Assembly (NCBI RefSeq): GCF_024138125.1
Contig: NZ_CP099993.1
Coordinates: forward strand, 806,001 to 870,000
Length of the DNA stretch: 64,000 bases
From: Halorussus salilacus
GTDB lineage: Archaea > Halobacteriota > Halobacteria > Halobacteriales > Haladaptataceae
Reading direction: 5' to 3'
The notes under the pieces are model-generated. The model had not been told where the DNA came from. It saw only the letters and a program-made list of their open reading frames with translations, and did no database searches. Of this stretch, positions 22,937 to 60,165 are shown piece after piece. Made by a program: the position numbers and the translations under genes. The number at the start of each line of letters is the position of its first letter. Positions within the stretch are counted from its first letter, which is position 1.

Positions 22937-23028
22937 AGAAAGCCCCCGCCCGCTCGCTTCGAAACGACTGAGACGCAAACGAGAACTCCCAGAAAGCCCC
23001 CGCCCGCGGTGGGTTGGTCGGACGGGCG
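22937..23028. repeat. Half-copies of the structured palindromic repeat
   Basis: Two copies of the left terminus AGAAAGCCCCCGCCCGC, at 22937-22953 and 22991-23007, 54 bases apart. The second runs into GGTGGGTTGGTCGGACGGGC (23008-23027), which matches the start of the 26-bp unit seen beside the full copy at 59931-60165 at most positions. The hairpin core is missing. They fill the gap between the YkgJ and MBL genes. Confidence 0.75.
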
Positions 23029-31235: not shown

Positions 31236-31364
31236 GGCCGTTTCTGGGTCGGGATACGGTTTGAATCCTCGGGACTAGGACGGAGAGGCCGTGAATCGAT
31301 GGATGGTCCGACACGACCCGGTGAGAGCATCGCTCACCGATTGCACAGTACGCGCCGTGAACAG

Positions 31365-31498
31365 CCAGAAAGCCCCCGCCCGCTCGCGGTCGCTGACCGA
31401 CATATCTGCGCCTCACCGCATCGCCCCGCATCGGCGCAGATAGGGGTCGGTCAGGCGACCACGCAAACGCGAGCGGGCGGCCCCTTTCATTCCCGCCC
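31365..31498 (+). repeat. Structured palindromic repeat, copy A
   Basis: Left end AGAAAGCCCCCGCCCGCTCG and right end CGAGCGGGCGGCCCCTTTC are nearly complementary. Inside, CTGACCGAC (31393-31401) pairs with 31446-31454 and ATCTGCGCC (31404-31412) pairs with 31433-31441, leaving a 20-base loop. The whole unit folds into one long hairpin. It occupies most of the gap 31236-31636. After it comes GTGGATTGTCCCACCGG, related in start to the 26-bp repeats beside the other copies. Confidence 0.8.
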
Positions 31499-50592: not shown

Positions 50593-50734
50593 GGTCTCGT
50601 CGGAGACACGCCGCGCGGGAACTTAACGAACGTGCCCGTCTAGGAGTCGAGAAAGTGACCGAGGCGAAGAACGCCCAGAAAGCCCCCGCCCGCTCGCTCT
50701 GAATCGCAATTGGTGAGACACTACGTTTTCCTCG

Positions 50735-50914
50735 AAATCCCCGCCCGCTCGCCACCTGCAGAGCGGAGCTCTGCCGAGCCCTCGTTCGCTCCGCTCACGA
50801 GGAGGCCGCTCAGCGACATATCCGCGCCTCACAGCACCGCACCGCATCGGCGCGGATAGAGGTCGCTGAGACGACCAAGCGGTGCGCGAGCGGGCGGCCC
50901 CTTTCAGTCCCACC
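50735..50914 (+). repeat. Structured palindromic repeat, copy B, with extra left end
   Basis: Core: CTCAGCGAC (50809-50817) pairs with 50862-50870 and ATCCGCGCC (50820-50828) with 50849-50857; loop 20 bases, exactly the geometry of copy A. Left terminus about 50735 (AAATCCCCGCCCGCTCGC), right terminus CGAGCGGGCGGCCCCTTTC (about 50888-50906). A separate left terminus AGAAAGCCCCCGCCCGCTCG is at 50677-50696. The region 50593-51084 holds no gene that I can support. Confidence 0.8.
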
Positions 50915-50943
50915 CTTGCGGTTCGCGTCACCGGCCGCTATTC

Positions 50944-51033
50944 CGTGGTGCGGTTGGCCTGCTGATTCCGGTGGTTCGGTTGGCCTGCTGATTCCGGTGG
51001 TTCGGTTGGCCTGCTGATTCCCGTGGTCCGGTT
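50944..51033. repeat. 26-bp tandem repeat, three units and a partial
   Basis: Units at 50944-50969, 50970-50995 and 50996-51021 plus about 12 bases. Core of each is GGTGGTTCGGTTGGCCTGCT then GATTCC. It lies 30 bases beyond the right end of structured repeat copy B and directly before the XPB start at 51085. A related 26-bp pair is beside copy C (59931-59982). Confidence 0.85.
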
Positions 51034-51084
51034 CGTCTGCCGTCACACGGTTTAAGGCGGCGGAGTGCGGAGGGACGACCAACC

Positions 51085-59930: not shown

Positions 59931-60165
59931 GAGAATCGGCCGACCGACCAATCCACGGGAATCGGCAGACCGACCAATCCACCGCGGGCGGGACTGAAAG
60001 GGGCCGCCCGGTCGCGTACAGTTTAGTCGTCTCCGCGGGCAACTATTCTCGCGCGGGCTGTGTCCTCGCGAGCGAAGCGAGTGAGGGCTCGTCGAACCGC
60101 AGGTCCGACGGTGCGGAGAGCGCGAGAATATCCCGCGGAGCGACCGCGAGCGGGCGGGGGCTTTC
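59931..60165 (-). repeat. Structured palindromic repeat, copy C, with 26-bp repeats
   Basis: Read on the minus strand: AAAGCCCCCGCCCGCTCGCG, then CTCCGCGGG (60132-60140) pairing with 60031-60039, and ATTCTCGCG (60121-60129) pairing with 60045-60053, around a 67-base loop. Right end GGGCGGCCCCTTTCAGTC. Beyond it are two 26-bp units (59931-59956, 59957-59982; minus strand GTGGATTGGTCGGTCTGCCG then ATTCCC). The gap 59816-60283 holds no gene other than this. Confidence 0.8.

Follow-up and report, generated by a model that had tools for sequence, protein, structure and literature searches.

Integron attC sites are folded single-strand sites with conserved unpaired bases and a stem that varies in length, and are characterised by RYYYAAC/GTTRRRY boxes and an IntI-type integrase. 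REPs are 20–40 bp in length, carry a GTAG-type head and are obligately linked to a RAYT gene (PMC2817692). PATEs lack terminal inverted repeats and have near-terminal palindromes related to the ends of IS605 (PMC3119063). The Small Mobile Repeats SMR-A and SMR-B of Haloquadratum walsbyi are about 110 bp long, end in prominent inverted repeats that have no relation to known transposons, and are present in tens of copies that show no target duplication; their sequences are highly conserved, and SMR-A inserts into IS605/PATE palindromes (PMC3119063).

We analysed a stretch of 64,000 nucleotides of Halorussus salilacus (contig NZ_CP099993.1, positions 806,001 to 870,000; referred to here as the window), which contains three copies of an intergenic repeat of about 110–130 bp with the ends GAAAG...CTTTC. 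These belong to a covarying hairpin repeat family of haloarchaea that reaches about a hundred copies in some genomes, and we found no description of the element in the literature outside subscription journals.

Results

Three copies of a hairpin repeat in the window

A sequence-only reading of the window had reported three copies, A, B and C, with shared ends; all three are present as described and the ends are exact. Copy A is a complete element, and its parts are listed below with the other relevant features of the window.

31368–31488, plus strand: copy A, complete element of 121 bp (covariance model match C1:837364–837504)
31356–31367, plus strand: 5' flank motif of copy A, here CGTGAACAGCCA, consensus upstream flank of the element RNNRNGAACRYCCM (flank logo, 104 copies)
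31368–31372, plus strand: copy A GAAAG, 5' end helix, partner CTTTC at 31484–31488
31373–31375, plus strand: copy A CCC, unpaired half of the 3x3 internal loop, opposite CCC at 31481–31483
31376–31387, plus strand: copy A outer arm, partner 31469–31480, covarying among copies
31388–31392, plus strand: copy A stem 3, GGTCG, partner CGACC at 31456–31460, with a purine bulge at 31455
31393–31401, plus strand: copy A stem 4, CTGACCGAC, partner 31446–31454
31402, plus strand: copy A unpaired A, opposite GGG at 31443–31445
31403–31412, plus strand: copy A stem 5, TATCTGCGCC, partner 31433–31442, loop 31413–31432
31489–31498, plus strand: 3' flank of copy A, here ATTCCCGCCC, consensus AGTCCCRCCC (flank logo)
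50734–50905, plus strand: copy B, whose 5' junction has additional hairpins
50678–50696, plus strand: extra unit upstream of copy B, opening with the element 5' arm (GAAAGCCCCCGCCCGCTCG; 5' arm pattern, 54/57-bp tandem units)
59996–60165, minus strand: copy C, with extra hairpins in the stem 5 loop and a C.C mismatch in the outer arm
22938–23007 (or to 23010), plus strand: collapsed copy in which two 5'-arm units run directly into a downstream-type flank (GGTGGGTTGGTCGG), with no hairpin and no right end

The equal stem spacing of copies A and B and the three pairs reported as changed on both sides are both exact. Stem 4 is CTGACCGAC/GTCGGTCAG in A and CTCAGCGAC/GTCGCTGAG in B, with exactly compensatory pairs, and stem 5 is TATCTGCGCC in A and TATCCGCGCC in B, with the partners changed to match. 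Copy C keeps both inner stems with different bases, as had been noted, and its C.C mismatch lies where GCTCG faces CGACC in the outer arm. The inner two-part stem was correctly identified, except that stem 5 is one pair longer than drawn (TAT..ATA), and outside it we recognise an outer arm of 12 bp, a 5-bp stem and the 5-bp GAAAG/CTTTC helix, around a conserved 3x3 CCC/CCC mismatch. The copies are not explained by one palindrome that was simply inverted, which the sequence-only reading had named as a counter-explanation, as their unpaired features are asymmetric and conserved; these are the CCC/CCC loop, the 3' purine bulge, the A opposite GGG/GTTG, and a 3' single-stranded stretch.

Chance is excluded as the origin of these structures, by the pairing in the 16-copy alignment described below and by two further results. 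Compared with dinucleotide shuffles, copy A folds at z = -7.3 as RNA (minus strand) and at z = -6.6 as DNA (plus strand), and the window has nine instances of the 5' arm pattern where 0.25 are expected. The right-end 14-mer alone, with two mismatches allowed, is not significant within the window. Rfam 15 gave no match in the window at the gathering threshold, and around copy A only a chance match (E = 3.4) at a relaxed threshold. The collapsed copy at 22938 has the appearance of a hairpin deletion via the short homology CCCGC. Downstream of copy B (50940–51040) there are tandem copies of ~26 bp (GGTTGGCCTGCTGATTCCGGTGGTTC), and units resembling these, capable of forming small GGTG/CACC hairpins, follow many copies.

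A conserved frame with variable stems

On the plus strand the 5' half of the element reads GAAAG, CCC, a 12-nt arm, GGTCG, the 9-nt stem 4, A, a stem 5 of ~10 nt opening with TAT, and the loop. The 3' half continues with ATA, GGG or GTTG/GTGG/GTCG, the stem 4 partner, one purine, CGAC[C/T], and 8–9 nt or a small hairpin, and after the second 12-nt arm it closes with CCC and CTTTC, followed by AGTCCCRCCC. The frame, the 3x3 C/C loop and the bulges are conserved, whereas the stems vary with pairing retained: among 191 copies the second CCC of the loop is intact in 183, and stem 4 has 50 distinct 5' sequences. This whole architecture is retained in copies from other haloarchaeal families.

Loops are drawn from a small repertoire, and some copies carry extra hairpins. 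Others have a wholly different interior (e.g. L004, L023 and L239) or are short and nearly empty, with end helices only (L001, L012, L029) or GAAAGCCCCCGGCCCCTTTC (L029). At least two unrelated interiors and the near-empty copies have the same ends and flanks in common. About 40% of the host copies are preceded by 54- or 57-bp tandem units that open with the element's own 5' arm, and units like GGTGGATTG.GTCACCGG are often found downstream. The loop motif TCTC[CA]GCAC[CA]GCCC is present in many element loops and also caps a separate hairpin, GGCGCTCTCTCAGCACCGCCCGAGCGCC (L274 3500–4760); exchangeable hairpin modules, of which CTCGCTTCGCTCG is another, appear to be a repertoire common to haloarchaeal spacers.

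Read on the minus strand, the element is GGGTGGGACTGAAAGGGG...GGGGGCTTTC. For 31368–31498 the minus strand is GGGCGGGAATGAAAGGGG...(hairpin)...GGGGGCTTTC, with the consensus GGGYGGGACTGAAAGGGG; speculatively, a quadruplex-duplex hybrid might arise from its four G-tracts in the high-K+ cytoplasm, the hairpin serving as a loop. The second of these G-tracts is GG in some species.

Covariation and strand signal

We placed 191 copies by flanking sequence anchors rather than by pairing, and compared their arms with shuffled partners. Watson-Crick pairing is 95.3% in stem 4 (63.2% with partners shuffled) and 97.2% in the outer arm (87.2% with partners shuffled). In an alignment of 16 copies, 62 cells are doubly changed (19.1 +/- 3.2 in shuffles), and pairing falls from 98.7% to 44% or less when the partner is shifted by 1–3 bases. 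G.U intermediates are scarce. Genome-wide covariation is strongly supported by multi-copy alignments and shuffle controls, with the pairing and mismatch statistics being leads rather than proof because the copies are not independent.

Mismatches on the plus strand in stem 4 and the outer arm are A.C in 48 instances and G.T in 20 (p = 0.0009), among copies that are phylogenetically non-independent; an A.C on the plus strand is a G.U or G.T on the minus strand. Without a recurrent A.C at stem 4 position 8 the strand signal is weaker (34 vs 20, p = 0.08), and the helix-end pair 25–101 has the opposite trend in the 16-copy alignment (GC:10, GU:6 on the plus strand). The folded strand is probably the minus strand, which is usually mRNA-sense.

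Family size and distribution

A covariance model built from the 16 copies gives 107 matches at E <= 0.01 in the 3.6 Mb host genome; these matches and the sequence stretches around them form the host copy set. Along the main contig there is no strand bias (47 plus, 47 minus) and no regular spacing, the gaps being irregular (CV 1.34). Matches are present in 27 of 28 genomes of the host's taxonomic family. At E <= 1e-6, a Halobacteriales sample has matches in 105 of its 293 genomes, in 38 of its 87 genera. An exact 20-base scan of named genomes found most matches in Halorussus and Haloglomus; exact-pattern matches in Corallococcus, Stenotrophomonas, Nitrospirae and Clostridia are treated as possibly fortuitous.

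No phage record matched the element. None of 34 plasmid matches is annotated as a repeat or RNA, and one lies under a hypothetical protein. Haloarcula plasmids (e.g. pNG500) have the element upstream of an OB-fold gene, within an extended non-coding stretch; in several megaplasmids, including pNG500 (L273), this is a region of ~1.2 kb before an OB-fold/RPA-like gene. pNG500 also has T4SS-type genes, and the element may belong to a region for plasmid maintenance or transfer.

Copy number ranges from 0 to at least 118 among Halorussus species. H. amylolyticus (G011) has 91 copies, H. caseinilyticus (G013) 101, H. litoreus (G018) 65, H. halobius (G015) 59, and G008, G021 and G014 have 43, 41 and 31 respectively, whereas G019 has none and G017 has one. 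A tree of flanking genes pairs G019 with G011 as sisters (support 90) and places G017 together with G020, G024 and G014 (support 100), relatives that have 6–51 copies. Because the zero- and one-copy species are nested among relatives holding the element, one change in trans is a simpler account than about 100 separate losses.

Intergenic location and orthologous spacers

Copies are intergenic wherever examined: the 104 host copies show no overlap with predicted genes, and their contexts are distributed as the spacer types are. Of 137 tandem spacers pooled over sets, 94 have the minus strand as coding strand (p = 1.6e-5), so that this strand could be recognised as RNA or, alternatively, as exposed non-template DNA; about one quarter of copies are between divergent genes, so that no flanking transcript is expected over them. 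On either side, the neighbouring gene has a leaderless promoter of its own (TATA at -26 to -30) that lies between the element and the ATG, which places the element usually outside the 5' leader. A riboswitch or 5' leader was ruled out on these grounds. The flank logo of 104 copies contains no TATA box or promoter belonging to the element at a fixed position.

The btuC-btuD and livG-livF spacers have the element in most of 18 Halorussus genomes, at equal position and orientation. Its stems differ among species yet remain complementary, and the flanks are largely unalignable. Species with 6–12 copies still have it at both spacers, and a Shine-Dalgarno-like AAAGGAGG precedes livF in several species. 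In G019 the btu spacer is 34 bp and the liv gap is 98 bp and partly coding; in G017 the btu spacer is 100 bp, possibly with a decayed right end. The positions common to several species suggest that transposition is rare, and the copies examined include no autonomous one, none with a visible target duplication and no clean recent insertion.

Exchanged modules and near-identical bodies at distant sites

Exchange between copies is common. Arms and hairpins assort freely as modules, and the same inner hairpin is found with differing, still paired, outer arms. At livG-livF of the sister species G015 and G018, the inner hairpin has few changes, whereas in the outer arms several positions have changed on both sides. 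The C.C mismatch in GCTCG/CGACC is present in 12 copies, including copy C, and is expected of one-arm recombinants. Three distant loci (L222, L223 and L225), one of which is a site common across the genus, have near-identical bodies of ~134 bp, and the identity stops sharply at GAAAG and just past AGTCCC. Between the closely related G012 and G026, 3 of ~110 sites differ in the btu element and 3 of ~158 in its flanks, and with these similar differences there is no slowdown of the element. Because whole arms and hairpins are often swapped between copies, covariation alone is not proof of base-by-base (RNA) selection.

Discussion

From these patterns we infer a factor, a copying mechanism, a strand, and recognition as folded nucleic acid. 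Tentatively, and with considerable reserve, we favour a repeat defined by its ends, recognised as a folded single strand and maintained by one factor acting in trans. One strand, most likely the minus, would fold into a long stem; a putative trans-acting factor would read the end helix, the 3x3 mismatch and the bulges, keep the copies intact, and allow bodies to be copied or converted between sites exactly to the element ends. Since such recognition would require stem geometry and not specific bases, arms and inner hairpins could drift and swap while still pairing, and loss of the factor in a lineage would lead to joint decay of all copies. A single trans-acting recognition of this kind best unites the conserved ends and mismatches, the variable paired stems, the element-bounded copying and the all-or-none loss. 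Three candidates for the maintaining factor are not supported: a reverse transcriptase, as none is present in the genus, TnpB, as it is present everywhere, including the zero- and one-copy species, and a Y1 transposase, as it is missing from high-copy genomes.

Selection on the folded form, as RNA or as a DNA substrate, which the sequence-only reading had proposed, is still the best family of explanations, and one member of it is an mRNA element. On this view, transcription of operon spacers and 3' regions would yield the minus strand as a folded RNA that, by way of a common RNA-binding protein, governs stability, processing or termination for the neighbouring genes. The sense orientation in tandem spacers, the wobble-type mismatches favouring the minus strand, and the equally oriented btuC-btuD and livG-livF copies, with AAAGGAGG before livF in several species and survival where only 6–12 copies are left, are as this would predict. 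We nonetheless regard it as possible but doubtful, given the leaderless promoters of both neighbours between element and ATG, the copies between divergent genes, the lack of a promoter of its own at a fixed position, the loss of all copies in one species, and the lack of an Rfam match.

Covariation could also be purely mutational and free of selection, if arms are exchanged by ectopic recombination and one arm serves as template for the other through intrastrand template switching (quasi-palindrome correction). The free assortment of modules, the C.C intermediates that resemble one-arm recombinants, the G015 and G018 outer arms altered on both sides around a barely changed inner hairpin, and a btu element evolving no slower than its flanks in G012/G026 are all consistent with this. 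Correction should, however, remove the CCC/CCC mismatch, the bulges and the unequal loops, which are conserved across haloarchaeal families; it leaves the excess of A.C over G.T mismatches unaccounted for, and neutral DNA should have gone with the largely unalignable flanks at orthologous spacers. We therefore consider this explanation unlikely. Far less probable is a REP/REPIN-like or PATE-like element mobilised by an IS200/IS605-type Y1 transposase, in spite of the similar size class, copy number, intergenic site and single-strand hairpin character (PMC2817692, PMC3119063). The REP-associated enzyme anticipated by the sequence-only reading fails here, as Y1_Tnp (PF01797) is missing in seven genomes holding 31–101 copies (G011, G013, G018, G015, G008, G021 and G014); moreover, there is no tetranucleotide head and the hairpin covers the entire element. 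A Y1 enzyme may possibly have acted in the past and since been lost.

The element is very abundant between the genes of these genomes and carries no annotation where this was checked. It may represent an undescribed archaeal repeat class: an ends-defined, strand-specific hairpin, widespread in Halobacteriales, fixed at spacers across a genus, with stems rewritten in concert, and maintained or purged genome-wide by a single putative trans-acting system such as a new recombinase, nuclease or RNA-binding partner. Taken as a whole, we think this somewhat unlikely. Because its ends are frozen, its stems are freely rewritten yet paired, its orthologous positions are fixed and sister species differ by all-or-none loss, the question of which gene maintains the element is answerable by gene-content comparison. 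It also provides a natural system for separating structural selection from templated palindrome correction, a standing problem when covariation is taken as proof of RNA function.

Integron attC sites are similar in being folded single-strand sites with conserved unpaired bases and a stem that varies in length, but differ in having boxes, cassettes and an integrase; we saw no cassette structure, and the element ends are unlike attC boxes by sequence. MITEs are marked by terminal repeats that match a known transposon, often together with a target duplication; here a duplication is not visible because both flanks are conserved. By description the SMRs are the nearest known kind, followed by REP/RAYT systems and PATEs. 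Like PATEs and IS605-type ends, it is a haloarchaeal non-coding palindrome element with no visible target duplication; here, in contrast, the terminal GAAAG/CTTTC and 12-bp arms pair, and a single palindrome covers the whole element. Like REPs and BIMEs it is a high-copy extragenic imperfect palindrome with a conserved mismatch, probably read as a hairpin, but it is about 110–130 bp long, its GAAAG...CTTTC ends have no GTAG/GTGG head, and many hosts lack a Y1 enzyme. It shares with the SMRs a haloarchaeal host, terminal inverted repeats, a size of ~110 bp, many copies and no visible target duplication, as a descriptive criterion only, and is set apart from the SMR descriptions by its variable paired interiors and its location in ordinary gene spacers, many of them common to several species.
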